NCBI GenBank assembly: GCA_018816945.1
Contig: JAHIVC010000099.1
Coordinates: forward strand, 378,554-442,553
Source: Bacteroidota bacterium
Lineage (GTDB): Bacteria > Bacteroidota > Bacteroidia > Bacteroidales > GCA-2711565
Direction: 5' to 3'
DNA: 64,000 bases
Below, one piece after another: positions 33,001 to 64,000 of the stretch. The position numbers were made by a program, and so were the translations under genes. Under the pieces are notes generated by a model. That model saw only the letters and a program-made list of their open reading frames with translations, was not told where the DNA came from and ran no database searches. The first letter of the stretch is position 1, and each line of letters begins with the position of its first letter.

Positions 33001-33603
33001 ATGAATTTCAAACAAGCAGCAATACTGGGTTCCTATATTTCAAAGGATTATGCCGAAGATCTCTTCCGGCTTCTTACAACTTATAAAAGCATTTCTGCAT
33101 CTGAGGCGGCATCACGGCTTAATCTTCATATTAAAACCATTCAGGATTTTCTGGAGGATATGCATAAACTAGAGATACTCGATAAGGAAGAGGTTTATGA
33201 AGGGAAGAGGCCCTATTTCAGGTATTGGTTAAAGGTAAAGCGAATTTCGATGGATATCGATTTGACACCACTCTATCAGGACGAAGACTCTTCTGATTCG
33301 AGAATTAGTCTGAAAATCAGGGAGAAAAAGAATGCAAAGGTAAAATTTACAACATCCAGAAGTAACGATTATTTAAGCAATATTGTAATATGGGTAGGTG
33401 AAGGTCGCGATCGCAAAGAGAGAAAGATTAATCTTTCAATCCCGCAGGGTAAATTCTTATTCCATCTCCCTTTCCCTAGTGCAGATTATATAAGTATTAA
33501 GGAAATTATGAATAAAGCAGGTGTTGATGCGTTAAATATCCATGAAATACTTGATATTGTAGATGTTATGTTGAAATTTGGGGTAATCGAAAGTAATATA
33601 TAA
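33001..33603 (+). CDS. Winged-helix-like protein beside ABC-2 exporter, probable regulator
   Basis: The 200 residues have an N-terminal segment that reads like a winged helix-turn-helix: LFRLLTTYKSISASEAASRL, LHIKTIQDFLEDMHKLEIL, then a hairpin KEEVYEGKRPYFRYWLK. The rest (residues 80-200) is a mixed domain with no motif I can name. The exporter ATPase gene starts 24 bases later, so the gene order membrane protein, winged-helix protein, ATPase, permease looks like one operon. Regulation of that exporter is an inference from position. Enzymatic function is not indicated. Confidence 0.6.
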   Translation: MNFKQAAILGSYISKDYAEDLFRLLTTYKSISASEAASRLNLHIKTIQDFLEDMHKLEILDKEEVYEGKRPYFRYWLKVKRISMDIDLTPLYQDEDSSDSRISLKIREKKNAKVKFTTSRSNDYLSNIVIWVGEGRDRKERKINLSIPQGKFLFHLPFPSADYISIKEIMNKAGVDALNIHEILDIVDVMLKFGVIESNI

Positions 33604-33627
33604 TTATTCAATAAAAACGGTTGAATT

Positions 33628-35842: not shown

Positions 35843-36007
35843 TAGTACAGTTTGAAGTATTAGTTTATAGTCCCGAGAGACAGGTCGATATTGCTATTAC
35901 AATACAAAATTATATAAATCAACTGGGCCGATAGACTGGAATGGACAACCACGTCACACCGATATTTTATAAGGGTGTTATGCTTTATAACCTTTAATAC
36001 AAAAAAG

Positions 36008-36181
36008 ATGAAGATAAATTTTTGCGCAACATTATATTATATAGGTTTTGCAATGATATTTGCAGCTTCCTTAAGATATATCCTTGATATGTTATCCTTT
36101 AAGAATATCAACTTTTGGAGTATTATTTTATGTATAGGACTAATATTTTTAAGTATTGGCATGAGAAATACAAATAAATGA
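36008..36181 (+). CDS. Possible small two-helix membrane protein
   Basis: The 57-residue frame from ATG 36008 has two hydrophobic stretches (CATLYYIGFAMIFAASL and WSIILCIGLIFLSIG) with a short polar link, as in small membrane proteins. It ends 18 bases before the next gene. No family is recognised. In very AT-rich DNA such frames arise by chance, so only its position in a compact segment supports it. Confidence 0.35.
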   Translation: MKINFCATLYYIGFAMIFAASLRYILDMLSFKNINFWSIILCIGLIFLSIGMRNTNK

Positions 36182-36199
36182 ACTGAAAAACAAGATAAA

Positions 36200-37282
36200 A
36201 TGAAAAACTTCAAATTAAAAATAATCCTGATAATTTTAATTTTGGGATTAAGCAAAAATCTTTATTGCCAACATGAGGATAATCATTTAATTAATGGTGT
36301 TAAATATTATGCCATGTTGGATGGATACTGTGCCATGGCAGCCCTTCAAATGAATCTGGATTATTATGGATTTATCGTTGATCAATCATTATTACTGAAT
36401 CTTGGATGGAATTATGGGTTTATGTATTTAAAAACACCTTACTACTCAATATCGTATCCTGATACTGACCCTGTTGAAGAAATTATTTTCGCATGTGACA
36501 AGATTGGATTTAATGCTACTGTTTTAGTACATAAATCTATTAAAGAAGCAAAAGAAACTTTATTAAACTATATTTCTCAGGATATACCGGTAATTATACA
36601 ATGGATACCGCATACAGTTTTAGCTTATGGTTATAAAGACAGTGCAAACATTATAGTTTATAATGATCCAGGTAACATTAGAAATCAACTTATAGAAGAC
36701 ATTGATAGAACTCCATTTGGTAAAGGAGAAAAAGTATTAATGGCTATTTCTGATTGGGAGAAGATGCCTTATTTATGGGGGATGAGACAATATCAAATGG
36801 TAATAGTAGAATCAAAAGACAAAAATATTAATATAAACTGGAAAGAAATATGGAAAAGAAATGCCGAAAAAACTTTGGGTTTAATAAAGAATACATATCC
36901 AGCATATTATGGCATTGATGGCATAAGTAAAATGATCAAGGATTTAAAAATCAGTATAAATCAAGATATTTCAAAAAGTATCGAAATAGTAAAAAATTAT
37001 GAAATGTGTTTTAGCCTCGGAACAGGATTTCGAAGAAACGCAGCTTCGTTTCTATCTGGACAAGCATCTATTCTGAATAACGATAATTTACGACTTGCTT
37101 CATTAGAGTTTTTAAAATCAGCACATTATTTCCGCCAGGGATATAATTTAATAAATTGGTTTAAAAAAAATTATGACCAAGCGAAGGGTGATCAAGCTTT
37201 AAATGAATTCTTAGAAATATTAGATAATATTGTTGAATGTGAAAGGAATGGTGCAAATTATCTATTAGAAGCTTCAAAGTAG
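36200..37282 (+). CDS. Secreted papain-like (C39/BtrH-like) protein
   Basis: The 360 residues start with a signal peptide (LKIILIILILGLSKNLYCQ, cut near residue 23). The mature N-terminal half looks like a papain-fold cysteine domain. The candidate nucleophile is Cys44 in LDGYCAMAALQMNLDYYG, followed by LLNLGWNYGFMYL; a His lies in IPHTVLAYGY and an acidic residue in YNDPG. This order matches C39-like peptidases and the N-domain of BtrH-type acyltransferases. The C-terminal half (210-360) is helical, with no motif known to me. It could cut or transfer acyl groups on an extracellular substrate. It is the main gene of a segment with cassette-like boundaries and has no relation to the permease units around it. 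Confidence 0.62.
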   Translation: MKNFKLKIILIILILGLSKNLYCQHEDNHLINGVKYYAMLDGYCAMAALQMNLDYYGFIVDQSLLLNLGWNYGFMYLKTPYYSISYPDTDPVEEIIFACDKIGFNATVLVHKSIKEAKETLLNYISQDIPVIIQWIPHTVLAYGYKDSANIIVYNDPGNIRNQLIEDIDRTPFGKGEKVLMAISDWEKMPYLWGMRQYQMVIVESKDKNININWKEIWKRNAEKTLGLIKNTYPAYYGIDGISKMIKDLKISINQDISKSIEIVKNYEMCFSLGTGFRRNAASFLSGQASILNNDNLRLASLEFLKSAHYFRQGYNLINWFKKNYDQAKGDQALNEFLEILDNIVECERNGANYLLEASK

Positions 37283-48339: not shown

Positions 48340-50742
48340 ATGATTCAAAATTATCTTAAAACCGCACTTCGATTATTGATCCGCCAAAAAAGCTATTCGA
48401 TGATAAACATTGGTGGCCTGGCTATTGGTATGTCAGTCTGTATCCTTATCCTATCCTATGTTATTCATGAACTTAGCTTTGATAAATTTCATGAAAAGTC
48501 AGATCAAATTTATAGGGTTGGTTTGAATGCTACCGTTGGTGGGAATATAATGAACCTTGCTGTTACGAGTGCTCCAATGGGAGAAGCTTTACGTGAAGAT
48601 TTTCCGGAAGTGATTGACAATACAAAGTTTGTTATCGCCAGTGGTCAGGAATTCGAAGTTGGAGAACGAAAATTTATTCAGGATGGAATTTTATATGCTG
48701 ATTCTTCGTTTTTGGATATTTTTTCTTTTAAACTGATTCAAGGTAATCGAACAGAAGTTTTATTGAATCCCAGAAGCATCGTTTTAACGGAAACTGTCGC
48801 TAAAAAATTCTTCGGAGAAAACAAGGCTGTGGGAGAGGTCATTCGGATCGATAATGAAATTGCTTACACTGTTACCGGTGTATTGCAGGATATTCCTCCG
48901 AATTCTCAAATCCAGTTTCAACTAATTGTTAGTATGGACATCAGAGATCCCAGCTCCAGGTTATATGGATCAAATAGTTGGGGAAATATTATGATGTATT
49001 CCTATGTAATGTTGGATAAAAATGCAGATTATCTGAAATTACAGGAGAAATTTAATGATTTTAAAATAAGGCATACACAACAATTGGTTGATATGGGTGT
49101 GCATTTTGATCTTTTTTTACAACCATTAACCAGCATCCATTTATATTCAAATTTGGAAAGAGAAGGGGATAATAAAGGGGATATCACCTATGTTTATTTA
49201 TTTTCAGCCATTGCCACATTTATTCTCTTCATTGCATGTATTAATTATATGAATCTGGCATCAGCCCGTTCATTTAAACGTGCCAAAGAAGTGGGAATGC
49301 GTAAAATTCATGGAGCCATCCGGTCTCAATTGATACGTCAATTTATAGGAGAATCTATCTTATTTAGCATAGTCGCTTTTGTGTTATCAATTATAATTGT
49401 TCAGATTACTTTGCCGATGTTCAATAATTTAGTCTATCAAAATGACAGTTCTTCGGATTTATTCAGTAATAAGCTGACAATTATTGGTGTTTTTGTGGCG
49501 ATTACTTTTATTGTTGGTATTTTGGCAGGATCATATCCTGCCTTTTATATGTCATCCTTTTCGCCCATTGCTGCTTTAAAGGGTGAAAAAGTGAAAGGCA
49601 AGAAAAAATCATTATTGCGCAATATATTAGTAGTTATACAGTTTAGCATTGCCGTGACTCTAATAATTTGCACTTCGGTTATTTATAAGCAATTAAATTT
49701 TATGCAGAATAAAGATCTGGGGTTTAAAGGAGAGAATAGAATTATTATACCAATTAGGAGTGAATCATTGCGGAAAAAGAGTGAAGTTTTAAGAAATGAA
49801 TTTATAGCATTATCTGATGTTGAAAAGGTCAGCATTACGAATGGTGCTCCTGGTATTGGGATGAGTGGCTCGGGGTATTATCCAGAAGGTGGTGATAATA
49901 ATAATCCGGTTATTATTTATAATAGTACCATTGATGATCAGTTTGTTGAAACAATGGGAATGGAAATTGTTATTGGAAGGAATTTTTCTCATGAATTTGG
50001 CACTGATACATTAGCTGTATTAATTAATGAAGAGCTTGCAAAAAGATATAATTGGGATGATCCAATTGGTAAAAAATTATCAGTTAATGTTGGAGACAGT
50101 GTGCCACGGATTGATTTTAAAGTAGTTGGGGTGCTTAAGAGTTTTCATTTCCGTTCTTTGCTTACAAAAGTGGAACCCTTTGCATACCATTACCGACAAT
50201 CAAATATGCAATATGTTTTGATAAAATTAAATGCTAAAAACAAAGAATCAGCTTTAAAAAAGGTTGAAGAAAAATGGGCCGAATTATCAAATAATGCCCC
50301 ATTCGATTATTTATTTGTTGATGAAAATTTTAAAAAGAGTTATTTTTCCTATATCCGAATGGGAATACTGTTCACAGCTTTTACCTTGATTGCCATATTT
50401 ATAGCATGTATCGGATTATTTGGTTTGGCATCATTCCTAACCGAGTTGCGAACAAAGGAAATTGGAATCCGCAAAGTAAATGGTGCGGGTGTAATGAAAA
50501 TTTTGCAGTTGTTAAATACTGATTTTTTGAAATGGGTATGCATTGCTAATATTATTGCATGGCCTGTTGCTTGGTATTTTATGACTGAATGGCTGAAGAA
50601 TTTTTCTTATCAAATAAGCTTAAGCTGGTATTATTTTGCTTTTGGTGCATTACTTTCAATAATGATTGCGCTGATTACAGTCAGCTATCAATCAATTAAA
50701 TCGGCAACACAAAACCCGGTAGATTGTTTGAGATATGAATAG
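48340..50742 (+). CDS. FtsX/MacB-type pseudo-dimeric ABC permease, unit B (P5)
   Basis: The 800 residues open MIQNYLKTALRLLIRQKS. The first coupling segment is FKRAKEVGMRKIHGAIRSQ near residue 310, then GSYPAFYMSSFSPIAALKG. The second is ELRTKEIGIRKVNGAGVMK near residue 705, and the end reads NPVDCLRYE. It is 172 bases behind P4, a gap without hairpin or sigma54 element. It may belong to the P3-P4 transcript or have its own promoter. A strong palindromic terminator follows immediately, and after it the remnant of a kinase gene. Confidence 0.88.
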   Translation: MIQNYLKTALRLLIRQKSYSMINIGGLAIGMSVCILILSYVIHELSFDKFHEKSDQIYRVGLNATVGGNIMNLAVTSAPMGEALREDFPEVIDNTKFVIASGQEFEVGERKFIQDGILYADSSFLDIFSFKLIQGNRTEVLLNPRSIVLTETVAKKFFGENKAVGEVIRIDNEIAYTVTGVLQDIPPNSQIQFQLIVSMDIRDPSSRLYGSNSWGNIMMYSYVMLDKNADYLKLQEKFNDFKIRHTQQLVDMGVHFDLFLQPLTSIHLYSNLEREGDNKGDITYVYLFSAIATFILFIACINYMNLASARSFKRAKEVGMRKIHGAIRSQLIRQFIGESILFSIVAFVLSIIIVQITLPMFNNLVYQNDSSSDLFSNKLTIIGVFVAITFIVGILAGSYPAFYMSSFSPIAALKGEKVKGKKKSLLRNILVVIQFSIAVTLIICTSVIYKQLNFMQNKDLGFKGENRIIIPIRSESLRKKSEVLRNEFIALSDVEKVSITNGAPGIGMSGSGYYPEGGDNNNPVIIYNSTIDDQFVETMGMEIVIGRNFSHEFGTDTLAVLINEELAKRYNWDDPIGKKLSVNVGDSVPRIDFKVVGVLKSFHFRSLLTKVEPFAYHYRQSNMQYVLIKLNAKNKESALKKVEEKWAELSNNAPFDYLFVDENFKKSYFSYIRMGILFTAFTLIAIFIACIGLFGLASFLTELRTKEIGIRKVNGAGVMKILQLLNTDFLKWVCIANIIAWPVAWYFMTEWLKNFSYQISLSWYYFAFGALLSIMIALITVSYQSIKSATQNPVDCLRYE

Positions 50743-50748
50743 TGAAGT

Positions 50749-50784
50749 AAGGGATGGCTTCCCCAATTGGGGAAGCCATCCCTT
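50749..50784. terminator. Perfect 36-base palindrome after P5
   Basis: AAGGGATGGCTTCCCC, an AATT centre and the exact reverse complement form a self-complementary hairpin six bases after the P5 stop. It probably ends the P3-P5 transcript. No long T-run follows, so it may work in both directions or as an RNA stability element. A related hairpin stands after P7. Confidence 0.65.
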
Positions 50785-50796
50785 AGGGTTGCTAAC

Positions 50797-50863
50797 CTAA
50801 AAATTCAATGTAAAAGTTGTTTTATTTTTGGATTGACTGAACCGAGATGCTTCCTTTATGTTT
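50797..50863 (-). pseudogene. Remnant of a histidine kinase gene 3' end
   Basis: Read on the minus strand, the bases encode HKGSISVQSIQK and then, after a frame change in an A-run, KTTFTLNF and a stop. The kinases of this window end in HNGSISVKS...GSTFTLEF, HEGSISVRS...TIFTLKF and HNGNISVQS...GSTFTLMF. Position (behind a permease terminator) and orientation equal those of the intact kinases at 40459 and 63919. The rest of the gene is gone and the stop of permease P6 follows 11 bases away. Confidence 0.62.
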
Positions 50864-50874
50864 TTCCGGAAATA

Positions 50875-53304
50875 TCATTGGTATCTTAAACTATCCAACG
50901 GATTCGATCGCCCTGCTTTAACAGACTGATAGATTACAATCGTCAAACTGATGCCCATGGAAATAAAAAACGATAAAATAAATATCCAGGGCCTTAAGTC
51001 GATGTGATAAGCAAAGTTGTCAAGCCATTTGTCAAAGAGGTAATAGGCAATAGGCCAGGCAATAATATTTGCGAGAATCGTCAGATAAATGATTGATTTC
51101 ACCAATAACAAAACAATATCTTTCATGGAAGCACCAAAGGTTTTCCTAATCCCGATTTCTTTAATCTTTTGCTCGGCCGTAAATGCGGAAAGTGCAAAAA
51201 GCCCCAAACAGGTGATGATGACCAGAATGATTGAAAAAATGCCAAATAAATTTGCCATGAATGCTTCAGCGCGATAAAGTTTATCGAATTCCACCTCTAA
51301 GAACTGATATTCAAACGGAATATTGGGGTCGGCCGAAAGTAAGGTTTTTTCAATATGATTGATCGCATTTGTTTTATTTTCAGGATTAATTTTTACATAG
51401 ATAAAACGAAACATTCTTGGGTCATAGGATAATACCAAAGGACGGATTTCAGATTTCAGGGTCTGAAAGTGAAAATCTTTTATTATGCCGATGATATTGT
51501 GTTCTTTATCAAAAGATCCCCTATGAGGAACCACTTTCATACCGATTGGATTTTCGATATTCATTCTGCCCAAAGTAGATTCATTAATTATAATCTCTTT
51601 ATGTCTCATTTTAACAGATGGAGATAGATCTTCACCCATGATTAGTTTTATTCCAAACGTTTTTAAGAAGTCATGTTCAATATGATTGAATCCAAAATCT
51701 CCCCCTCCATTAATAAATTTTTCATCAGCCCCCATCCACAAAAAGTTAGATGATGAGTATGCACCAGCACTCATGGCCGCAGTACTGGCCGTGACATTAA
51801 CAATATCGGGGTTCTTTAATAACTCGGTTTTGATAAAATCAAATTTCTCAAGATATTTCCCGGATACATTTATAGTAACCGTATTTTTATAATCAAACCC
51901 CAGGTCTTTATTCCGGATAAATGAATATTGGCTGAAGATGATCACCGTCCCTATAATAAGTGCAACGGAAAACGTGAACTGGATAAGTACCAATATTTTT
52001 CTAAAAAGGTTCCCCCCTTGTTTGTTTCCGGACGCACCATAAAGGACTTTAATGGGACGGAAATTCGACAATAAAAGAGCCGGATAGCTCCCTGCCATAA
52101 CACTGCTGGCCAAGGTGATCAAAATTAATACGCCCACTATTTTTATACTTCCAAAGCTGCTGAACGACAATGTTTCTCCGATCAACTGATTGCAAAATGG
52201 CAGAATGAGTTTTACAATGGCCAATGAAATCAGTAATGAGAGGATAGCCATTAACAGCGTTTCGAGATAAAATTGGATGATCAGGTTTTTTCGCAGTGCC
52301 CCAAATGTTTTTTTGATCCCGACCTCTTTGGCACGAATGGATGAACGGGCCGTTGTCAGGGTCATGAAATTGATACAGGAAACCAACAATAACAGGCCCG
52401 AAATAATCAGAAACATATTTACATTGCTTTTGTTCCCTTTTTTATTGGCCGCGCCTCCTATAATTTTATCGGACTCCAGATACATGTTTTTTAAGGGCAT
52501 CAGGTGAATATAGTATTGCCAATTATTTTCAAATTCAGGTTGTCTGGCCTGAAGATAACCATATGCTTTTTGCCGGAAATTTTCAATATCCGTACCCTCT
52601 TTTAATAAAATATAGCTTTGAAAAAAATGAAGTCCCCAATTACCATTAATATCATAATTTCCATTTTCAGGCATGAAATCCGTTATTCGAATAAACGGGA
52701 TGAGCGAAACAAACTGAAGGCTTGAATTTTCGGGAACATCCTTTAGTATGCCTGTTACCTTAAAGTTAAAGTTGTTGTCCACCTGAATTACTTTTCCCAT
52801 GGGGTCTTCGTCCCCAAATATTTTTTTTGAAAAAGATGCTGTCAATACGATTGAATTTGGATCGAGCAAAGCGGTATTTGGGTCCCCTTCTAAAAAGGGG
52901 AACGAAAATATCTGAAAGAAATCAGTATCGGCAAATCCAAAAAATTCTTCTGAAAAAACGACGTCTTTATATTTAATCAGGTTGTTGTTACGCTCTCTTT
53001 GAATAAAGACCCGGAAACGTGCATATTTTTCAATTTCAGGAAGATCGGCTGCCATACTTGGAACCAAGGCTGGGGCTGTTCCAGAATTAATATTGTTTTT
53101 ACGTGAGACTACCCATTCCTTGTAAAGCTGATAGGTACGGTCGTTTTTTTCGTGAATACGGTCGTAGCTTAATTGATTAAATACCCATAAAAGAATAATG
53201 ATACTGATCGACATTCCCAATACCAGCCCGGCTACATTTATAAGGGAGGATAACTTTCTGCTTTTAATATTTATCCAAGCGGTTTTAAAATAATAGTTGA
53301 CCAT
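50875..53304 (-). CDS. FtsX/MacB-type pseudo-dimeric ABC permease, unit C (P6)
   Basis: The 809 residues open MVNYYFKTAWINIKSRKL. The first coupling segment is SIRAKEVGIKKTFGALRKN near residue 322, then GSYPALLLSNFRPIKVLYG. The second is EQKIKEIGIRKTFGASMKD near residue 715, and the protein ends NPLDSLRYQ; it is the only one of eight ending in Gln. It is the only permease on the minus strand. Its regulator pair is divergent on the plus strand, so unit C is the mirror image of units B and D. A sigma54-like element lies 45-60 bases before its start. Its periplasmic domains are diverged from the rest, which suggests a distinct ligand. Confidence 0.88.
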   Translation of the reverse strand: MVNYYFKTAWINIKSRKLSSLINVAGLVLGMSISIIILLWVFNQLSYDRIHEKNDRTYQLYKEWVVSRKNNINSGTAPALVPSMAADLPEIEKYARFRVFIQRERNNNLIKYKDVVFSEEFFGFADTDFFQIFSFPFLEGDPNTALLDPNSIVLTASFSKKIFGDEDPMGKVIQVDNNFNFKVTGILKDVPENSSLQFVSLIPFIRITDFMPENGNYDINGNWGLHFFQSYILLKEGTDIENFRQKAYGYLQARQPEFENNWQYYIHLMPLKNMYLESDKIIGGAANKKGNKSNVNMFLIISGLLLLVSCINFMTLTTARSSIRAKEVGIKKTFGALRKNLIIQFYLETLLMAILSLLISLAIVKLILPFCNQLIGETLSFSSFGSIKIVGVLILITLASSVMAGSYPALLLSNFRPIKVLYGASGNKQGGNLFRKILVLIQFTFSVALIIGTVIIFSQYSFIRNKDLGFDYKNTVTINVSGKYLEKFDFIKTELLKNPDIVNVTASTAAMSAGAYSSSNFLWMGADEKFINGGGDFGFNHIEHDFLKTFGIKLIMGEDLSPSVKMRHKEIIINESTLGRMNIENPIGMKVVPHRGSFDKEHNIIGIIKDFHFQTLKSEIRPLVLSYDPRMFRFIYVKINPENKTNAINHIEKTLLSADPNIPFEYQFLEVEFDKLYRAEAFMANLFGIFSIILVIITCLGLFALSAFTAEQKIKEIGIRKTFGASMKDIVLLLVKSIIYLTILANIIAWPIAYYLFDKWLDNFAYHIDLRPWIFILSFFISMGISLTIVIYQSVKAGRSNPLDSLRYQ

Positions 53305-53348
53305 GATTTAAAGAATAAAATTTGATATATGATATTAGATTTATTATT

Positions 53349-53455
53349 TTCAAAATCAATGCCAGTACGTAATGCAATGAAATACAGATGTATAAGATTT
53401 TTTAGTTTTTGAAAGTGTAACAATTCAATACATTGAGAGTATCTATATCATACAC
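53349..53455 (-). promoter_or_regulatory. Sigma54-like promoter of P6 with a different dyad pair, unit C
   Basis: On the minus strand, TGGCATTGATTTTGAA (53364 down to 53349) has a good -24 half and a TTGA -12 half; the start codon is 60 bases after its beginning. Upstream, GTGTA-N8-ATAC occurs twice in opposite orientation, at 53415-53431 on plus and 53455-53439 on minus. This differs from the GTTC/GAAC sites of units A, B and D. Confidence 0.55.
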
Positions 53456-53472
53456 TTCTATCATTTTTAAAA

Positions 53473-54864
53473 ATGCAAATAAATTCAGGTAAAATAATAT
53501 TGATAGATGATCATCAAAAAATTCTGGAATCTCTTCGGTTCCTGCTTAAATATCACTTCAGGGAGATCATCATGCTTTCGGGTCCTGAACAGATTTTCGG
53601 GGATGAAAAACTGAATGATGCAGATGTCATTATATTAGATATGAATTTTAAAGCCCAGGAGAAAAGCGGAAAAGACGGCTTATTCTGGCTTAAACGCATT
53701 TTACATAAATTTGAAGCAAAAGTTATTTGCCTGACCGCCTACGGGAGCATTTCCCTGACGGTTGAAGCCATGAAAATCGGGGCCACTGATTTTGTTACCA
53801 AGCCCTGGGAGAATGATAAGCTGGTAGCGACTATAAAATCGGCTTTAGCATTGAAAAAAGCACAGGATGAGGTGTCCCGGCTAAAAAGCAAGCAAATTCA
53901 TTTATCTTCCGAGATCAATAAACAGAATTACCAGATCATAGGAAATTCACCCGCCATTCAAAAAATACTTCAATTGGCCCATAAGGTAGCCCCATCCGAT
54001 GCCAATATTTTAATTACAGGTGAAAACGGAACGGGCAAGGATCTGATTGCCAGAGAAATTCATAGGTTGTCTCTCCGCAGGGAGGAGGCCTTTATAAGTA
54101 TCGACATTGGCTCATTAAGCGAATCGTTGTTTGAAAGTGAATTTTTCGGACATATGAAAGGGGCTTTTACAGATGCCATAGCGAACCGGACCGGTAAATT
54201 TGAAGCAGCTTCGGGTGGAACCTTATTTTTGGATGAAATCGGAAATCTATCCATCACAATGCAACCTAAAATACTTTCGGCCTTACAAAAAAAAGCAATA
54301 ACACCTGTAGGAAGCATTAAAGAAATTCCGGTAGATATCCGGATTATTTGTGCTACCAACAAGAACCTTCGTGAAATGATCGTTAACCATTTTTTTCGCG
54401 AAGACTTATTTTATCGGATGAATACTGTCGAAATCCATATCCCACCATTACGTGAGCGAAAAGAAGATATTCCGACGATAGCTAATTATTTTCTGAGGCT
54501 TTTTGGGGATAAATATGAAAAATTTCCCATCAGGTTTGATAAGATGGGTACAGATACTCTCATGAATTATGATTGGCCCGGAAATATTCGGGAATTGAAG
54601 CATACTATCGAACGGGCTGTAATATTGTGTGAATCAAATGTCTTATCATCTTCTGATTTTTCAAATCTGAACCAATTTAATGTCTCAAATAATAGCCAGC
54701 TAATTTCCCTGAATGAAGCTGAAAAAATGTTGATCAGCCGGGCAATGGACAGAAATGATAGAAATATTGCCGCAACATCACGCGAATTAAAAATTGGCCG
54801 CCAATCCTTATATCGTAAATTAAAGCGTTACCGGATTTATGTCCCCAATGAAAACAACGTATGA
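53473..54864 (+). CDS. NtrC-type sigma54-dependent response regulator, unit C
   Basis: The 463 residues comprise a receiver (IDDHQ, phospho-Asp in IILDMNF, Lys in VTKPWEN), AAA+ and Fis-type helix-turn-helix. Motifs are Walker A GENGTGKD, loop GAFTDA, Walker B TLFLDEIGNL, RMNTVEIHIPPLRER, and NIAATSRELKIGRQSLYRK near the end. The recognition region differs from units A, B and D, which fits the different dyad in its promoter gap. After the helix-turn-helix it has a short extra tail (YVPNENNV). The kinase gene overlaps it by four bases (ATGA). It is divergent from permease P6, its likely target. Confidence 0.93.
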   Translation: MQINSGKIILIDDHQKILESLRFLLKYHFREIIMLSGPEQIFGDEKLNDADVIILDMNFKAQEKSGKDGLFWLKRILHKFEAKVICLTAYGSISLTVEAMKIGATDFVTKPWENDKLVATIKSALALKKAQDEVSRLKSKQIHLSSEINKQNYQIIGNSPAIQKILQLAHKVAPSDANILITGENGTGKDLIAREIHRLSLRREEAFISIDIGSLSESLFESEFFGHMKGAFTDAIANRTGKFEAASGGTLFLDEIGNLSITMQPKILSALQKKAITPVGSIKEIPVDIRIICATNKNLREMIVNHFFREDLFYRMNTVEIHIPPLRERKEDIPTIANYFLRLFGDKYEKFPIRFDKMGTDTLMNYDWPGNIRELKHTIERAVILCESNVLSSSDFSNLNQFNVSNNSQLISLNEAEKMLISRAMDRNDRNIAATSRELKIGRQSLYRKLKRYRIYVPNENNV

Positions 54865-56234
54865 TTCACCCAAAACTATATTTAAATATTATTATCCGGG
54901 TAGTGTTAATTTCCATTACGTCCATCATCACAAGTTTTATTTATACTGTTTATCAGGATTGGTATTTATTGCTGTTTTTTACAAGTATAGCGGCGATTCA
55001 AACATTATCCTTAATTAATTTCATAAAAAAAACCAATAAAACAATAGCCGACTTTTTTCTTTTTGCCAAAAACGGAGAAAAGAACATTCGTTCGTATAAA
55101 TCAAAAAATCAAATATCTCATGCATTAATAAACTCGCTGGAGGAAATTTATGCAACCATACAAAATCTAAGGTTGGAAAGCGAAAAAAGAGAACAATATT
55201 TTGGCAAGGTATTCGAGATGATTACTACAGGGATTATGATAGTGGGGAAGAACGGCGATATTGAATTTCATAATAATGCCCTAAAAAAAATGATTAATAG
55301 AAAACAGATTCTCAATATTAATCAGTTTCGAAGGCTTTCTCCTGACTTTTATCATTCCCTTGATTCAATAAGGAACGGTCAAAAGAAAATTATTAAAATT
55401 TCATCAAATTCATCAATGAGCTTTTTGTTAAAAGCCAACAATTTTATTATAAATAATAGTCCGGTTCGTGTATTTACCCTGGATAATATCAAACAGGAGT
55501 TGGATGAAAGGGAACAGGAATCCTGGAGACGACTGGTAAAAATATTTAATCATGAAATTTCAAATTCGATGAGTCCGATTGTATCTACTAGTAGAGCAAT
55601 ATGTGATTTGTTAAAAGAGAATTTTTGTGAAAATCCTTACCCTTCGAAGGAGTTATCAAAAGAAATAATAGCTGATTTGATTCATGGGCTTGAAATGATA
55701 AATGAAATTGGTGCCGGTATCCATTATTTTGTCACCCAAGTAAAGAGTTTAGACTCCATTCCCGATCCCAAATGCAAGGATATTATGGTTAAGGATTTTA
55801 TATTCAACTTGATCAATATGTCAGAAAAAAGTGGGTGGGAGCATATTCAAATTGAACAAAAATTAGAACCCGAAGAGGTTGCAATTTTCGCAGATAAAGA
55901 ATTGATTTCACTGGTTTTCATTAATATTATCAAAAACTCTTGTGAAGCTCTTCAAACTACAAAACGCCCTAAGATCCTTATTAGCAACGAAGAAACAAGT
56001 GAATATTCAATCATTCATATAAGTGATAATGGATCAGGAATTTCTGAAAATGAATTGGAAGAAATTTTCGTTCCATTTTATACCACACGCAAATCAGGAA
56101 CAGGAATAGGTTTAAGCCTGTCCAGACAAATCATGCATTTACACGGAGGTAAAATTGAAGTACAATCCAAACCATATCACGAAACAACTTTATCTCTGTT
56201 TTTCCCTAAAATTATTAAACTTCAGTTAAATTGA
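54861..56234 (+). CDS. Sensor-less (intramembrane-type) histidine kinase, unit C
   Basis: The 457 residues have two membrane helices near the start (LNIIIRVVLISITSIITSFIY and LLLFFTSIAAIQTLSLI) linked by about eight residues (TVYQDWYL). The juxtamembrane FIKKTNKTIADFF, a PAS-like domain (MITTGIMIVGKNGDIEFHN), DHp with the variant FNHEISNSMSPIVS, and the ATPase domain follow (IIKNSCEA, DNGSGISE, GTGIGLSLSRQIM). Its H-box and C-terminus (TTLSLFFPK) deviate most among the kinases, in line with the separate lineage of unit C. It starts with a 4-base overlap to its regulator instead of the 11-base overlap of the others. Confidence 0.9.
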   Translation: MIHPKLYLNIIIRVVLISITSIITSFIYTVYQDWYLLLFFTSIAAIQTLSLINFIKKTNKTIADFFLFAKNGEKNIRSYKSKNQISHALINSLEEIYATIQNLRLESEKREQYFGKVFEMITTGIMIVGKNGDIEFHNNALKKMINRKQILNINQFRRLSPDFYHSLDSIRNGQKKIIKISSNSSMSFLLKANNFIINNSPVRVFTLDNIKQELDEREQESWRRLVKIFNHEISNSMSPIVSTSRAICDLLKENFCENPYPSKELSKEIIADLIHGLEMINEIGAGIHYFVTQVKSLDSIPDPKCKDIMVKDFIFNLINMSEKSGWEHIQIEQKLEPEEVAIFADKELISLVFINIIKNSCEALQTTKRPKILISNEETSEYSIIHISDNGSGISENELEEIFVPFYTTRKSGTGIGLSLSRQIMHLHGGKIEVQSKPYHETTLSLFFPKIIKLQLN

Positions 56235-56292
56235 TTATTTTATATTTTAGTCTTTTCTCATCTTCTATAAGAAATGTCGGAAAATTAATTGA

Positions 56293-57642
56293 CTAGAATT
56301 TTAAAGTAAAGATTGTTTCTATTTGTGGTTGGGATCGAACAGAAATACTTCCTTCATGCAAATACATGATTTGACGCGAAAGGCTTAGTCCGATACCTGA
56401 ACCATTTTCTTTGGTCGAGTAGAAGGGGATAAAGATTTTGTCCAGTTCACTTTCTGATATTCCATTACCATTGTCCTCTATATTAATCAGTAAATTTACT
56501 TCGCTCGATTTTTTAGCAGTAATCTTAATTTTCGGATTTGGACGATCAACAAGAGCCTCCAAAGAATTTTTTATGAGATTGATTAACATTTGCTCGATGA
56601 GCGATTCATCCGCAAAAAGGTCAAGATCGGGATCAATATGATATTCAAATTCAATTTGTTCGGACTTGAACCTTTCCTGATAAAATTTTTGAATTTTTTC
56701 AACGGTATGAACGATTTTAAATTTTGTCAGATTGAGTTTGGGGTTCTTGGTGACGTTTTTATAAACCTCTATAAAATCAACCAATCCTTTGCCTCTTTCT
56801 TCAATGATCTCGGTATTGATTGCGATGTCCTTAATAATTTCATCATCCAATTCAGATGCTTTTTTAATCACTCCATCCTGATAAATGTAGCGCCTGATCA
56901 CCTTTGATAAGGAAGTAATGGGTGTGAGAGAGTTCATGATTTCATGATTCAAAACCTGAATTAATTTTTGCCAGGATTCCAATTCGTTATGATCAAGTTC
57001 ACGGCGGATATTTTGAAAAGAGATAATATGGATGGTATTTGAACCAATTTGGATGAGGGTCCTTTTGATCGCCAGGTTTTGGATTTCAGCATTCAGACTT
57101 ATTTTTACGACTTGGTTTTTCTCAGTTTTTAAATCAGTAATTGCCTGATGAAAGTCGGGACATTTTTCGAATAACGTATTCATGAATTTGCAGGCTTCGC
57201 AATGCAGGATATTTGATGCTTCAGGATTAAAAAGCTCAATTTTACCTTTGTCATCAAAAGCAATAATGCCAATTTTTACATGATTTACAATGGTATTAAG
57301 ATAATGGGTTTTTTGTTCATTTTCAATGCGTATTTGTTGTAATTCTTTATTGATGTAATCAAATGAAAGATTAAGCCCTTTGAAGTTTTTCATTACATGC
57401 TCATCCTGATAATTTACGGCTGTATCTTTTGATTGAATCCTGAGAAAAAATGCGGCGAGGTTTCTGTTTGTTTTATTAATGTAGTTGATGAGTAAAATCG
57501 TTTGGGCCACAATTAGAACAAATGAGATGATGCTTGCCATGATTTTATCTTCTTGCCTTATCATGAAAGCAAATAAAACACCCATGATAACAATCAGTAT
57601 CACCCGAAGGATGATGGAGACATAAAATCGGTTAAAGCCCAT
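56293..57642 (-). CDS. Sensor-less (intramembrane-type) histidine kinase with Cys-rich PAS region, unit D
   Basis: The ATG at 57642 (MGFNRFYVSIILRVILI) is chosen over 57651 because it gives the same 11-base overlap with the regulator as units A and B; the protein has 449 residues. Two membrane helices are separated only by RQEDKIM. The juxtamembrane YINKTNRNLAAFF, PAS-like domain (HVKIGIIAFDDKGKIELFN), DHp LNHEIMNSLTPITS and ATPase domain (LIKNSLEA, DNGNGISE, GSGIGLSLSRQIM) follow. The PAS region contains HCEAC and a further Cys in FEKCPDF, not present in the other kinases, possibly a metal or redox site. It likely controls P7 and P8 through the overlapping regulator gene. Confidence 0.9.
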   Translation of the reverse strand: MGFNRFYVSIILRVILIVIMGVLFAFMIRQEDKIMASIISFVLIVAQTILLINYINKTNRNLAAFFLRIQSKDTAVNYQDEHVMKNFKGLNLSFDYINKELQQIRIENEQKTHYLNTIVNHVKIGIIAFDDKGKIELFNPEASNILHCEACKFMNTLFEKCPDFHQAITDLKTEKNQVVKISLNAEIQNLAIKRTLIQIGSNTIHIISFQNIRRELDHNELESWQKLIQVLNHEIMNSLTPITSLSKVIRRYIYQDGVIKKASELDDEIIKDIAINTEIIEERGKGLVDFIEVYKNVTKNPKLNLTKFKIVHTVEKIQKFYQERFKSEQIEFEYHIDPDLDLFADESLIEQMLINLIKNSLEALVDRPNPKIKITAKKSSEVNLLINIEDNGNGISESELDKIFIPFYSTKENGSGIGLSLSRQIMYLHEGSISVRSQPQIETIFTLKF

Positions 57643-59005
57643 GTTTTTCAATTTTTAGATAGAGGGTGGTGCGAGAAATATTTAATTCCTGGGCGGCTTT
57701 GGTCAGGTTGCCCTGATGTTTGTCCAGTACTTTTTTAACAATGTATTTTTCAACATCAACAAGTTTGTTTGAAGAACCCAAATCCCAATTGTTGCTGGTT
57801 TTTATTTCAATCCGAAAGTCTTCCGGCCTAAGAATGTCGGATTCGGCAAGAATGACGGCTTTTTCGATGGTATGTTTTAACTCTCTCACATTTCCGGGCC
57901 AGGTATGGTTTAATAGTGAGTCAATTCCTGTACTGCTGATCTTAATTTCTCCTTTATTATATTTCTTGGAGTATCGCTTAAGGTAAAAATCAGCAATGAT
58001 CAAAATGTCGTCACCTCTTTCACGTAGTGGGGGGATTTCAATTTTTATGGTATTAAGCCGATACAATAAGTCTTCCCTGAACAATTCCTGATTGGTTAGC
58101 AAAAAGGGATTTTTGTTAGTGGCTGAAATCAAGCGGATGTCAATCTTCACAGCCTTGTCCGAACCCACCGGGGTTACTTCCCTGCTTTGCAAAACCCGCA
58201 ATAATTTTGATTGTAAATTCATCGAGAGGTTGGTAATTTCATCTAAAAACAAGGTCCCTCCGGAAGCCGCAACAAACCGGCCTGTTCTATCGCTTTGGGC
58301 ATCGGTGAAAGCCCCTTTTTTGTGGCCGAACATTTCACTTTCAAATAAATTTTCATTAATGGAACCTAAATCAACACTTACGAATAATTCTTTTTTCCGA
58401 CCTGATAGTTTGTGGATTTCCCTTGCAACCAATTCCTTCCCTGTGCCGTTTTCGCCCAATATCAAAATGTTTGCATCGGTAGCTGCCACTTTACGGATGG
58501 TTTTAAAAACTTCGGTCATTTTTGGTGATGATCCCAGAAAATCATTCTGAACATTCAAGGAATTTTCTATCAATACCTCTTGAAATCCCTTTAGTTTTTT
58601 AACTTTTCGTTCTGCATCACGCAGTTTAAGTGCAGCGTGTAAACTGGCAATCAGTTTGTCGATGTCCCAGGGTTTGGTAATAAAATCGTAAGCTCCTTCT
58701 TTGATCCCTTTCACTGCAATATCAACTTCACTGTAAGCTGTGATCAATATTACAAGAATATCGGGGTTACTTTCCCTAATTTTTCTTAACCAGTACAAAC
58801 CTTCATTCCCTGAATTCACCCCAGCCTTAAAATTCATATCCAGCAAAACAAGATCCCAATCTTTTTCATTCAAAAGGTTTGGAATTAAATTGGGGTTGCG
58901 CACAGTTTCTATTTCCTTAAATTCGTACTTTAACGATTGCTTAAGCGTAAGCAAGATGCTTTCGTTATCGTCAACAATTAATATTTTTCCTTTGGTCGGA
59001 TTCAT
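57632..59005 (-). CDS. NtrC-type sigma54-dependent response regulator, unit D
   Basis: The 457 residues comprise a receiver (VDDNES, phospho-Asp in VLLDMNF, Lys in ITKPWDI), AAA+ and Fis-type helix-turn-helix. Motifs are Walker A GENGTGKE, loop GAFTDA, Walker B TLFLDEITNL, RLNTIKIEIPPLRER, and NLTKAAQELNISRTTLYLK at the end. The helix-turn-helix shares ISRTTLY with unit B, and both promoter gaps contain the same type of 11-base-spaced half-sites. It is divergent from P7 with a 186-base gap. Confidence 0.93.
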   Translation of the reverse strand: MNPTKGKILIVDDNESILLTLKQSLKYEFKEIETVRNPNLIPNLLNEKDWDLVLLDMNFKAGVNSGNEGLYWLRKIRESNPDILVILITAYSEVDIAVKGIKEGAYDFITKPWDIDKLIASLHAALKLRDAERKVKKLKGFQEVLIENSLNVQNDFLGSSPKMTEVFKTIRKVAATDANILILGENGTGKELVAREIHKLSGRKKELFVSVDLGSINENLFESEMFGHKKGAFTDAQSDRTGRFVAASGGTLFLDEITNLSMNLQSKLLRVLQSREVTPVGSDKAVKIDIRLISATNKNPFLLTNQELFREDLLYRLNTIKIEIPPLRERGDDILIIADFYLKRYSKKYNKGEIKISSTGIDSLLNHTWPGNVRELKHTIEKAVILAESDILRPEDFRIEIKTSNNWDLGSSNKLVDVEKYIVKKVLDKHQGNLTKAAQELNISRTTLYLKIEKHGL

Positions 59006-59043
59006 TGAAAAACAACTTATTGAAAGGCAAATATATGAAAATT

Positions 59044-59160
59044 GTTCAGATGCCGAACGCTAATTGTCCAGACTCTGAACAGTTTTATAATAATTTATAA
59101 GTAAAAATAAGTTAAGTTATTGAAAAAGAATAATTAAACTATTTTGGCATTTACTTTGAC
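59044..59160 (+). promoter_or_regulatory. Four-half-site activator array and sigma54-like promoter, unit D
   Basis: GTTC, GAAC, GTCC and GAAC start at 59044, 59055, 59066 and 59077, spaced exactly 11 bases, as two G-T-N-C-N7-GAAC dyads. Sixty-eight bases after the last begins TGGCATTTACTTTGAC (59145-59160): a good -24 half and TTGA in place of TTGC. The start codon used at 59192 is 47 bases after it, as in units A and B. Confidence 0.72.
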
Positions 59161-59191
59161 TTAACTTATGCGAAGTCAAAATTTTTTAAAA

Positions 59192-61510
59192 ATGATCAAA
59201 TCTTATATCAAACTCGCCATTCGGAATTTTACGAGAAACCTGTCTTTCTCATTAATTAACCTGTTTGGATTGAGCATTGCCTTTGCTTTATTTATTCTGC
59301 TTTCTCTTTATATAAAAAGCGAGCTGACTACAGATAAGCATCTTCAAAATTCTGAAAATATTTATTGTCTATTTGAGAAAAACAGGAGCCATATTTTCGG
59401 TAACGGTTTGTTTGCCGAATTTGTGAATGAGCGCTATCCTGAAATAAAGCAGGTTTGCAGGTCCATTATTTTTGACGGGGAGTTTTATTTGGATGACGGG
59501 CATTATGTTTATTTTGATAAAGTAGGATTGGTAGATTCCACCTATTTTAAAATATTCAAAAATAAAGAACACTTGGGAAATTTGGATCATGCGCTGGATG
59601 GGCGAAATGGCATGGTGCTGACCGAAAGTTCGGCCAAAGCCTTGTTCCATAATGAAAATCCAATTGGCCGAAAAGTTAGATGGAACAATCAGTACGATTT
59701 TACAGTAAATGCAGTAATACCTGACCTACTTGAAAATTCTTTGTACCATGTTGATTGTTTTGTATCCATAAATTGTTTGCTGAATTTTTTTGTAGGAGCT
59801 CTCACAAATCCAAACGATTGGGGCATCAATACTTTTGTTGAACTTGAGCAAAACGCGGATATTCCATTACTTGAAGAGAAGCTAAGTAAAGATTTGTTGG
59901 CTGAGTTTGGACGGGATTCGAATTGGGGACTGATCCCTTATTCGGCTTTATACTTTAATCAAAAAGCTCAGGCACCTGAAGAGTTCAAAAGAGGAAACAT
60001 GCAATTTGTGAAATTGTTTATCGGCATAGCGTTGTTTATCATTGTTATCGCCTGTATCAATTATGTCAACCTAACTACGGCTAAAGCGGGAAGCCGCGCA
60101 AGGGAAGTTGGCATTAGAAAAGTAGTGGGTGCCTATAAGCAAAAGCTGATCAAACAGTTTTTGACCGAATCAATTTTGCTAATTTTTATTTCGCTCATCA
60201 TTGGCTTTTTATTGGCAGAACTTTCAATCGGAGAGTTTAATCGTTTGGCCGAGATAAATTTACAGGTAAAGGATTTTTATTTTTTCCCATTTAATATCTT
60301 TTTTGTGATGGGTGTGATATTGTTAGGTGTGATTTCAGGCTTGTATCCTGCATTGGCACTAACTTCATTTAAAACAGTCGAGGTAATTAAGGGAAAAGTA
60401 TCAAAAAGCCGAAGTGGCATTATCGCGCGAAAAGCATTAATGGTTTTTCAGTTTGTAATTTCGTTGGTGATGATTGTGGGCACCATCGTCATTTACCGTC
60501 AGATTAATTATGTGAAGCAATTAAACCTTGGGTTTGACAAAGAAAATGTGATCCGTTTAAAAACGAAAGATGACGCTTATAAAAACGCACAAGATTTTAA
60601 ACAGGAATTGCTCACAATACCGGGTGTTCAAAAAATAGCTTTTGCTAATGCTGTGCCAGGTAATATCTCCAACGGAATGTTTGCCCAAGTGGATGGCCAG
60701 GATATTAACATGCGCCATTTAAAGTGTGATCCGGCGTATTTCGATCTCTTGGGGTTTCAATTGGTAAGCGGGAGGCATTTTTCGAGCGAAGATGAAGCGG
60801 ATAGGGCCGGAAAATATATCATGAATGAAGCTGCCACGAAAATCTATGGTTGGGAAGATCCTTATCAGATCAGACTTTGGGGTTTTAAACTTATTGGGAT
60901 CGTTAAAGATTTTAATTTTCAAAGTTTACATCAGCCGATCGGGCCTTTGTTTATTACTTTTTTGGATACCATGAATGAAATCGTTATCCGTATTTCGGGA
61001 ACAAACCAAACGGCAACGCTTGCCGAGATTGAAAAGGCATGGATGAAAAAATACCCCGAGGACCCATTTAAATTTGAGTTTGTCGATCAGGTTGTAGATC
61101 AACAATACAAATCCGAAGAACGCCTTGGCAAGATTGTGGGTTACTTTTCCATATTTGCATTGATTATTGCATGTATGGGTTTATTGGGAATGACCTCTTA
61201 TATGATACAGCAACGACATCGTGAAATCGGAATCCGAAAAGTTCATGGCGGATCTGTTCAGCAAATTATCAATATGCTTTCTTTTGAGTTTGTGAAATGG
61301 GTAATTTTGGCCTTTGCAATATCTGTACCTGTCTCTTATTACCTGATGAAAATATGGCTTGCAAATAATTTCACTTATCAGGTCGATATTGATTGGTGGA
61401 TTTATGTTCTTAGCGGTTTGGCTGTCGTTTTTGTATCATTAGTTACTGTTAGCATTCAATCTTATCGTGCAGCAATCATGAACCCTGTGGATAGTTTGAG
61501 GTACGAATAA
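59192..61510 (+). CDS. FtsX/MacB-type pseudo-dimeric ABC permease, unit D (P7)
   Basis: The ATG at 59192 (MIKSYIKLAIRNFTRN) aligns exactly with P8. An ATG at 59168 would lie at or before the expected transcription start of the sigma54 element. The 772 residues have the first coupling segment GSRAREVGIRKVVGAYKQK near residue 305, then GLYPALALTSFKTVEVIKG. The second is QQRHREIGIRKVHGGSVQQ near residue 680, and the protein ends NPVDSLRYE. It is the first gene behind the unit D promoter. P8 is a close paralogue 86 bases downstream, and a 218-base stretch is nearly identical between them. The substrate is unknown; an ATPase must come from another locus. Confidence 0.88.
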   Translation: MIKSYIKLAIRNFTRNLSFSLINLFGLSIAFALFILLSLYIKSELTTDKHLQNSENIYCLFEKNRSHIFGNGLFAEFVNERYPEIKQVCRSIIFDGEFYLDDGHYVYFDKVGLVDSTYFKIFKNKEHLGNLDHALDGRNGMVLTESSAKALFHNENPIGRKVRWNNQYDFTVNAVIPDLLENSLYHVDCFVSINCLLNFFVGALTNPNDWGINTFVELEQNADIPLLEEKLSKDLLAEFGRDSNWGLIPYSALYFNQKAQAPEEFKRGNMQFVKLFIGIALFIIVIACINYVNLTTAKAGSRAREVGIRKVVGAYKQKLIKQFLTESILLIFISLIIGFLLAELSIGEFNRLAEINLQVKDFYFFPFNIFFVMGVILLGVISGLYPALALTSFKTVEVIKGKVSKSRSGIIARKALMVFQFVISLVMIVGTIVIYRQINYVKQLNLGFDKENVIRLKTKDDAYKNAQDFKQELLTIPGVQKIAFANAVPGNISNGMFAQVDGQDINMRHLKCDPAYFDLLGFQLVSGRHFSSEDEADRAGKYIMNEAATKIYGWEDPYQIRLWGFKLIGIVKDFNFQSLHQPIGPLFITFLDTMNEIVIRISGTNQTATLAEIEKAWMKKYPEDPFKFEFVDQVVDQQYKSEERLGKIVGYFSIFALIIACMGLLGMTSYMIQQRHREIGIRKVHGGSVQQIINMLSFEFVKWVILAFAISVPVSYYLMKIWLANNFTYQVDIDWWIYVLSGLAVVFVSLVTVSIQSYRAAIMNPVDSLRYE
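61085..61302 (+). repeat. 218-base tract nearly identical to 63493-63710
   Basis: Within the second FtsX half of P7 and P8, 218 bases agree with about three differences, while the sequence just after is clearly diverged. The tract encodes the membrane helix and the coupling segment that should face the ATPase. Confidence 0.85.
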
Positions 61511-61515
61511 AATTT

Positions 61516-61547
61516 AAGGGGTGACACCCTACAGGGTGTCACCCCTT
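61516..61547 (+). terminator. Perfect hairpin between P7 and P8
   Basis: AAGGGGTGACACCCT, a 2-base loop and its exact complement form a 15-base stem six bases after the P7 stop. No T-run follows, so it may limit read-through into P8 rather than stop it fully. It sits where the palindrome after P5 sits. Confidence 0.6.
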
Positions 61548-61596
61548 AAGATTTGCTTTGACTTAGCTTATATGTGAAATCAAATTTTATTAAAAA

Positions 61597-63918
61597 ATGA
61601 TTAAATCTTATATCAAAATCGCTATCCGAAATTTTACGAGAAATATAACTTTCTCATTGATAAATCTTTTTGGACTGAGCATCGCTTTCGCCCTGTTCAT
61701 CCTGCTTTCATTATACATTAGAAGCGAACTTACAACCGACAAACATATTGAGAATGTAGAAAATATCTATTGTTTGTATGAAAAAAACAAAAACCATATT
61801 TCAACCGCAGGTATGTTTGCTGAATATGTTAACGGCCGTTATCCTGAAATAAAACAGGTTTGCAGGAACTTTAAGTATGATGGGGAATTTTTTTTGAAAG
61901 ACGGGAGTTTTGTATACTTTGACAGATTCATTACAGTCGATTCAAACTATTTTGAAATATTCAGGAACAAAGCCATACTAGGCAATCTTGAACATGCTTT
62001 GGATGGGAAAAACGGAATGGTACTGACCGAAACTGCCGCGAAAGCCTTGTTTGGTGATAAAAACCCAATAGGAAAAACGGTTAACTGGAACAACAATTAT
62101 GATTTTGTAGTTAATGCCGTGATTCCGGATGTACCTGAAAATTCAAGTTACCATGCGGATTGTTACGTTTCGATCTTGTGCCTATTGGTTATTGACAAAG
62201 CAAAGCTTATCAGTCCCGGAGACTGGACCATAACAACCTTTGTAGAGGTCAATGAAAATGTGGATATCACAAAACTGGAAAAAAAGCTGAGTACAGATTT
62301 ATTGGAACAGTTCAAACAGAATACCAATTGGGGCTTGCTTCCCTATTTGGATATTTACTTTAATCAACAAAAAGTCAATACCTATGGTTTCAGACATGGA
62401 AATAAACAATTTGTGCTGTTGTTTATTTGGATTGCGTTGTTTATCCTCGTCATTGCCTGCATCAATTATATAAATTTAACTACCGCCAAGACCGGAAGCC
62501 GGGCAAGAGAAGTTGGAATTCGTAAGGTTGTGGGCGCTTATAAGCAGAAGCTGATAAAACAGTTTCTTGCCGAATCCATCCTCCTGATCCTTTTTTCACT
62601 TGTTATTGGATTTTTATTGGCAGAATTTACAATTAATGAATTTAACCGATTGGCTGAAATAAATTTACACGTAAAGACTTTTTATGAATATCCATACAAT
62701 ATCGTGTTTATTTTAGGAGCAATTATTTTGGGAATAATTTCGGGCTTGTACCCTGCATTTGTTCTGACATCTTTTAAAACTGTCGAGGTGATAAAAGGAA
62801 AAGTAAATAAAAGTAAAGGTGGTGTAATTGCAAGAAAAGCACTCATGGTTTTCCAGTTTATTATATCATTGATTATGATTGTTGGTACCATTGTAATTTA
62901 CCGTCAGATCAATTATGTAAAACAAATAAACCTTGGGTTTAACAAGGAACATGTGATCCATTTAAAAACCAATGATGCAGCCTATAAGAATGCACAGGAC
63001 TTTAAAAACGAATTGCTGGCCATACTTGGAGTTGAAAAAGTTTCATTTTGTGCAGGTATTCCAGGGGATGTCACCAATGGGATCTATGATGAGATTGATG
63101 GCCAGGAAATCTATATGAAACATTTGTCTTGTGATGATGAATATCTGGATTTGATGGGCATGGAACTTGTCAGTGGCCGGAACTTTTCGGGTGTGGATGC
63201 ATCTGATATAAGGAAAACCTATATGGTGAATGAAGCTGCAGTAAAAGCTTTTGGCTTGGAAAATCCATACGAGGTCAAATTTTTTGGTTTCTTAAAACTG
63301 ATCGGGATTGTTAAAGATTTTAATTTTCAAAGCCTTCATCAACCGATTGCCCCATTATTTATTACCTTTTTGGATAACATGGAGGAAATAGTTATCCGTA
63401 TTTCCGGCACAAATCAAACCGCCATAATTGATCAAATTGAAAAAGCCTGGATCAAAAAATATCCGAAAGACCCATTTTCTTTTAAGTTTGTTGATCAGGT
63501 TGTAGATCAACAATACAAATCCGAAGAACGCCTTGGCAAGATTGTGGGTTACTTTTCCATATTTGCATTGATTATTGCTTGTATGGGTTTATTGGGAATG
63601 ACTTCTTATATGATACAGCAACGACATCGTGAAATCGGAATCCGAAAAGTTCATGGCGGATCTGTTCAACAAATTATCAATATGCTTTCTTTTGAGTTTG
63701 TGAAATGGGTCATCCTTGCTTTTCTATTATCCGTTCCGGTATCATATTATCTCATGAAAACGTGGTTAGCTAAAAACTTTACCTATCAGGTCGAGGTGGA
63801 ATGGTGGATATTCATTGTAAGCGGAATTATAGTTGTTGTTATCTCACTCTTAACAGTTATTCTACAATCTTATCGGGCTGCTGTGATGAATCCGGTGGAT
63901 AGTTTGAGATATGAATAA
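61597..63918 (+). CDS. FtsX/MacB-type pseudo-dimeric ABC permease, unit D (P8)
   Basis: The 773-residue close paralogue of P7 has the same start (MIKSYIKIAIRNFTRN), coupling segments GSRAREVGIRKVVGAYKQK and QQRHREIGIRKVHGGSVQQ, and the same end NPVDSLRYE. The first periplasmic domain is moderately conserved and the second, around residues 470-560, is more diverged from P7. That is where ligand choice would be expected to differ. The bases before its start resemble those before P7, including TTTGAC, but the -24 GG is lost, so it probably depends on read-through past the hairpin. Its stop is directly followed by the stop of the convergent kinase gene. Confidence 0.88.
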   Translation: MIKSYIKIAIRNFTRNITFSLINLFGLSIAFALFILLSLYIRSELTTDKHIENVENIYCLYEKNKNHISTAGMFAEYVNGRYPEIKQVCRNFKYDGEFFLKDGSFVYFDRFITVDSNYFEIFRNKAILGNLEHALDGKNGMVLTETAAKALFGDKNPIGKTVNWNNNYDFVVNAVIPDVPENSSYHADCYVSILCLLVIDKAKLISPGDWTITTFVEVNENVDITKLEKKLSTDLLEQFKQNTNWGLLPYLDIYFNQQKVNTYGFRHGNKQFVLLFIWIALFILVIACINYINLTTAKTGSRAREVGIRKVVGAYKQKLIKQFLAESILLILFSLVIGFLLAEFTINEFNRLAEINLHVKTFYEYPYNIVFILGAIILGIISGLYPAFVLTSFKTVEVIKGKVNKSKGGVIARKALMVFQFIISLIMIVGTIVIYRQINYVKQINLGFNKEHVIHLKTNDAAYKNAQDFKNELLAILGVEKVSFCAGIPGDVTNGIYDEIDGQEIYMKHLSCDDEYLDLMGMELVSGRNFSGVDASDIRKTYMVNEAAVKAFGLENPYEVKFFGFLKLIGIVKDFNFQSLHQPIAPLFITFLDNMEEIVIRISGTNQTAIIDQIEKAWIKKYPKDPFSFKFVDQVVDQQYKSEERLGKIVGYFSIFALIIACMGLLGMTSYMIQQRHREIGIRKVHGGSVQQIINMLSFEFVKWVILAFLLSVPVSYYLMKTWLAKNFTYQVEVEWWIFIVSGIIVVVISLLTVILQSYRAAVMNPVDSLRYE

Positions 63919-64000
63919 TTAAAACATTAAAGTGAAAGTACTTCCTTTGTTTACAGTAGATTGAACAGAAATATTTCCATTATGCATCCGCATAATCTGG
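63919..64000 (-). CDS. Histidine kinase, C-terminal end only (5' part outside window)
   Basis: The minus-strand frame encodes QIMRMHNGNISVQS...NKGSTFTLMF and stops at 63919-63921. This is the end of the ATPase domain of the same kinase family as at 40459, 56293 and 23439. The remaining gene, and presumably its regulator and another permease promoter, lie right of the window. It abuts the P8 stop codon with no spacer and continues the unit pattern. Confidence 0.85.
   Translation of the reverse strand, partial: QIMRMHNGNISVQSTVNKGSTFTLMF

Follow-up and report, generated by a model that had tools for sequence, protein, structure and literature searches.

Homology-facilitated illegitimate recombination is defined in work on E. 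coli conjugation (PMC3240628) and, according to the citations in PMC5361080, has also been described in Acinetobacter, Pseudomonas stutzeri and Streptococcus pneumoniae. A model of this type was proposed for the type VI cluster displacement arrays of Vibrio (PMC5361080). The locus presented here would resemble such events in combining homologous recombination at one end with illegitimate joining at the other; unlike observed events, however, it is inferred from a natural scar, and its homologous anchor is only about 77% identical. In the type VI effector-immunity displacement arrays of Vibrio cholerae and for Rhs orphan 3' ends (PMC5361080), modules enter via a conserved anchor, as appears to be the case here, and in both V. 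cholerae and our locus the displaced old 3' sequence persists beyond the new module. In contrast to V. cholerae, what was displaced here is the 21-codon tail of a kinase, unlikely to have a function, the target gene remains full length, and the module consists of a permease and a two-component pair.

The genes involved also have described counterparts. The passages of PMC12316311 that concern sigma-54-regulated FtsX-like (COG0577) permeases present them as enriched in Bacteroidia, and our permeases are likewise FtsX/MacB_PCD proteins with sigma-54-like sites in Bacteroidota. Those passages do not describe arrays of permeases with their own NtrC-type pairs, nor their turnover, and our literature search on Bacteroidetes did not find permease, sigma-54 and two-component system combined.

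A kinase-gene remnant between two permeases

The DNA studied is a 64-kb stretch (the window) of contig C99 of a draft Bacteroidota genome (G000). Large MacB_PCD/FtsX permeases form an array from about 23.4 kb of the window onward, and in most units a minus-strand HATPase_c kinase and an NtrC-type sigma-54 regulator are divergent from a plus-strand permease. Unit C, comprising permease P6, a regulator and a kinase, is the only unit of the array in reverse orientation. P6 lies 132 bp from permease P5 (48340-50742, plus strand), and this gap holds a perfect hairpin and a kinase fragment. The following features are compared with HGW-Bacteroidetes-17 (G001; PHDM01000028), a member of the same genus:

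50718-50742, plus strand: last eight codons of P5, identical to those of the G001 permease P5' and unlike those in G004, G005 and G003
50748-50785: perfect hairpin with 17-bp arms, between P5 and the remnant and P6 (z about -7.6, both strands)
50797-50860, minus strand: original 3' end of kinase K2, displaced (final 21 codons with the stop, one 2-bp deletion), identical in 62 of 66 columns to the intact G001 K2 3' end

The first-pass annotation had read this gap as holding a minus-strand kinase-gene remnant with one frame change, and had proposed aligning it with all kinase C-termini; the alignment bears this reading out. The minus strand of 50797-50860 encodes HKGSISVQSIQ and then, in another frame, KNKTTFTLNF-stop, matching the conserved end of the kinase family (for example, HKGAISVRSTPKDGTTFTLIF-stop in 23439-24794), and the frame change is a 2-base deletion relative to the intact gene. 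In a frameshift-tolerant alignment against the C-termini of 19 family kinases, the stretch scored 75 with the best kinase, against a mean of 25.4 (sd 4.6) and a maximum of 43 in 60 first-order Markov randomisations. The similarity to the kinase C-terminus is far above chance; together with it, the disrupted frame and the loss of the upstream part identify a gene remnant. Its bounds are best placed at 50797-50860, positions 50861-50863 belonging to the foreign side. When 21 sequences (19 loci and the two assembled arrays, about 400 kb) were scanned with a C-terminal profile, no second remnant of comparable strength appeared. The remnant is likely a scar devoid of function.

The hairpin is not followed by a T tract. 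A dispersed-repeat test confined its exact 16-bp core to the present seam and two seams of G001, with imperfect relatives (83-91%) elsewhere in the genome. The G001 counterpart lies between a convergent permease and kinase; in the window, the hairpin may now end the transcripts of both P5 and P6. The hairpins at L050 10364-10411 and window 50748-50785 share the core TTCCCCAATTGGGGAA, and the changes in their arms are compensatory (GGCT/AGCC vs GGAT/ATCC).

The uninterrupted seam in a sister genome

Does an intact permease-then-kinase junction, which the earlier annotation suggested seeking in related genomes, exist? It is present in G001, the only close relative retrieved when genome contigs were scanned with K2. 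There (contig C11; L050) the seam is uninterrupted and reads permease P5', hairpin, minus-strand kinase, regulator and two permeases. The kinase is the orthologue of window K2 (94.7%) and the regulator that of its neighbour RR2 (96.1%), and to the right of the seam both genomes have largely the same succession of units. Window positions 50718-50860 align with the G001 junction (L050 2724-2868) with two mismatches and one 2-base gap in 145 columns (about 97% identity). This shared stretch runs from the final eight permease codons through the hairpin to the terminal 21 codons of K2, and the similarity breaks off abruptly at 50860, on the P6 side. When the G001 junction was searched against the G000 genome, it gave two strong matches 5.5 kb apart, one of 97% (query 19-169) and one of 80% (query 104-361), which overlap across the kinase end, now present twice; the remaining matches were short and weak. 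The uninterrupted junction is seen in one genome, G001, and both it and G000 are draft assemblies.

With a draft genome of 108 contigs and 2.95% contamination, and with arrays of similar genes, which assemble poorly, it is conceivable that the contig is a chimera joining two strains or two array copies at similar kinase ends. However, the junction search found no second, intact copy of the G001-type junction elsewhere in the G000 assembly, the left joint has no homology to mislead an assembler, and the base composition of the block beyond it, which does not mark it as foreign, matches that of the neighbourhood. We consider a chimera quite unlikely.

The second match leads to K2 itself, whose sequence falls into two parts:

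56293-56498, minus strand: foreign 3' end that replaced that of K2, some 69 codons with 23% divergence from G001
56499-57651, minus strand: original body of K2, 3.7% diverged from G001
57632-59005, minus strand: RR2, the regulator partner of K2, 96% identical to G001

Divergence from G001 is thus low over the first 1153 nt of K2 and high over the last 206 nt or so, with a change point at 56495-56526 (log-likelihood gain 38.5 versus a permutation maximum of 7.3, n=300). While the end of K2 itself is identical to the G001 kinase end at only 46 of 70 positions, the remnant (62 of 66) matches G001 as closely as the K2 body does. Because the remnant matches the G001 K2 end where window K2 switches to 23% divergence, we conclude that K2 originally ended in this sequence. 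The two edges leave a gap of about 140 bp in the old K2. No comparable rise in 3' divergence is seen in kinase 85339, beside which there is no insertion. Most codon differences in the K2 body are synonymous (27 vs 10), so that K2 still looks like a maintained gene.

These observations bear on what became of the older arrangement. The first-pass annotation had it receive the inverted P6 unit, its regulatory pair being deleted or replaced. The former part agrees with the uninterrupted seam in G001, but the latter does not hold: K2 and RR2 persist 5.5 kb to the right, and the ancestral pair thought lost is this very pair (56293-57651 and 57632-59005), the remnant being the displaced 3' end of its kinase. 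One may still suppose that a separate kinase-regulator pair, with K2 and RR2 unrelated to the remnant, once followed P5 and was lost through deletion or through replacement by the inverted P6 unit, as the remnant occupies the position where intact units have a kinase. Yet divergence between the remnant and the end of the K2 orthologue in G001 is as low as that of the K2 body, and window K2 is exactly the gene that carries a foreign 3' end. This scenario would need both a lost K2 duplicate and an independent conversion of K2, and we hold it to be very unlikely.

K2 and RR2 are divergent from permeases 59168-63918, and a sigma-54-like site precedes 59168 while none precedes P5; the P5/K2 boundary therefore most likely separated two units rather than lying inside one. 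To judge from gene arrangement, K2 and RR2 most likely serve permeases 59168-63918. This seam had recombined at another time too, because P5' is only 55% identical to P5; the last eight P5 codons mark an older recombination seam.

The putative inserted block and its likely mode of entry

Between the displaced tail and the K2 body lie the following features:

50860-50861: left joint of the block, no homology seen
50861-56498 (right edge 56495-56526): putatively inserted block comprising P6, its regulator and kinase and a foreign 3' end for K2, not present at this position in G001
50875-53304, minus strand: P6, MacB_PCD/FtsX permease without orthologue in the genus (best 38%)
53473-54864, plus strand: NtrC-type sigma-54 response regulator of unit C (Pfam)
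54861-56234, plus strand: HATPase sensor kinase of unit C, with a complete C-terminus plus a 9-residue extension

Pfam assigns to unit C a MacB_PCD/FtsX permease, a sigma-54-activator regulator and a HATPase kinase; it is a complete unit with a sigma-54-like site, and is absent from the relatives. The -24/-12 site, TGGCATTGATTTTGAA, lies 46 nt upstream of P6 and scores 11.7 against a 95% background of 11.4, which is only suggestive of a promoter. Sigma-54-like TGGCAY..TTG sites are found upstream of 43378, 53304 (minus), 59168, 73134, 88228 and 93521; the permeases they precede face an NtrC-type regulator divergently, and the site at 66880 is weak (5.3). The unit-C kinase has no close relative that we could find in the genus, and a search for a P6 donor, covering 60 relatives as well as 393 genomes from the order, gave no match above 39%. 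No donor with unit C next to a K2-like end was found.

Could a resident unit C simply have flipped in place, with a breakpoint in its own kinase that left the kinase tail behind? Unit C alone is reversed within the array, as a local inversion would have it, but its kinase, about 33% identical to K2, keeps a complete C-terminus, the remnant belongs to K2, and G001 has no unit C. Such a flip is highly improbable. Direct insertion followed by inversion was also tested against the sequence and was disfavoured.

Very probably, then, the remnant is the detached tail of K2, left when the block carrying unit C inserted into the end of this gene, K2 being kept whole by a substitute tail. The ancestor would have had the arrangement still seen in G001, with a P5-side permease, the hairpin and a convergent K2, then RR2 and two divergent permeases. 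An unsampled donor block, with P6 on the minus strand, a regulator and a kinase on the plus strand and the 3' end of a gene for a K2-like kinase, would have recombined into K2; the model requires a donor in which unit C already stood tail-to-tail with a K2-like kinase. The right crossover would have fallen inside homologous kinase sequence (56495-56526), so that K2 kept an open, full-length frame whose C-terminal 69 or so codons are foreign. The left joint, made without homology at 50860/50861, would have cut off the last 21 old K2 codons with the hairpin attached, and this joining would also have deleted about 140 bp of K2. The severed tail would later have taken its 2-bp deletion. We infer this polarity, as a single event.

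Homology-facilitated illegitimate recombination is, on balance, the most likely mechanism, and fits a locus in which one joint falls within homologous kinase sequence and no homology is visible at the other. The homologous joint is the switch at 56495-56526 within K2. Past 50860 the block has no similarity to G001, a comparison with the recipient side, and about 140 bp of K2 are missing, presumably lost in the same event. The insertion itself is better supported than its mechanism.

Some genomic islands integrate site-specifically and regenerate the 3' end of their target gene, and would produce the same geometry, in which one side keeps the displaced original 3' end and the other gains a replacement; both edges indeed carry a similar 11-bp stretch (CTTCCTTTATG/CTTCCTTCATG). 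However, the open reading frames of the block are those of permease, regulator and kinase, with no recombinase gene among them, and identical attachment sites were not found at the two edges, which differ by about 140 bp in their position within the kinase. The 11 bp themselves belong to conserved coding sequence. Site-specific integration is thus extremely improbable. A target duplication producing the 11-bp edge repeat was likewise rejected: the right edge is some 140 bp deeper in K2, and the repeat consists of conserved codons.

Turnover in the permease array

To the right of P5, kinases and regulators of G000 and G001 are mostly 86-97% identical, whereas the neighbouring permeases range from 36 to 94% and many are replaced. 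Over window 48340-63918, compared with L050, the permeases have been replaced or have diverged far more than the kinases and regulators (P5 55%, K2/RR2 95-96%). A second block absent from G001 spans 63919-64000 and continues in L071 (C99 about 442472-448720), with kinase 63919, regulator 65261, permease 66880 and one more gene. It adjoins kinase 70226 (window-frame coordinates), whose last 140 nt or so have been exchanged relative to G001, divergence rising from 9.4% to 28% (gain 16.6). This suggests that kinase 3' ends are recurrent crossover points; two cases are no proof of a rule, and the second is not polarised.

Other differences are seen along the array. G001 lacks the five non-permease genes (window 32177-37282) that separate permeases 29427 and 37975, and has these two permeases next to each other. 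Regulator 86666 (window-frame) has an orthologue in G001 that is broken into two overlapping frames (L051 6870-8265), probably through a frameshift or sequencing error. At the same chromosomal place, G004 has a single permease, the orthologue of P5 (78%), right after adaptor and ATPase genes; it is followed by what look like the array-ending downstream genes of G000, as judged from protein ends and sizes. In G000, this lone permease between the ABC ATPase and apparently the same downstream genes has as its counterpart some 70 kb (28906 to about 98300, window-frame, C99) with 13 permeases and several kinase-regulator pairs.

It is possible, if doubtful at this stage, that kinase 3' ends and the NPVxxLRYE C-terminal ends of permeases are general crossover anchors through which sigma-54-controlled permease/two-component arrays of Bacteroidota are built and reshuffled, permease repertoires outpacing regulators in turnover; the remnant would then be one scar among others. 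At this locus, it is the scar of an insertion that is well resolved and of a known type, in an unusual, fast-changing sigma-54 permease array. The empty-site comparison resolves how one permease/two-component unit entered the array, and corrects the view that a regulatory pair had been lost. It also indicates that a sensor kinase can swap its C-terminal 69 or so codons during an insertion, its frame staying open. Holding 13 permeases in about 70 kb where G004 has one, the array is a good system for the study of recombination-driven growth of sensing and export repertoires.
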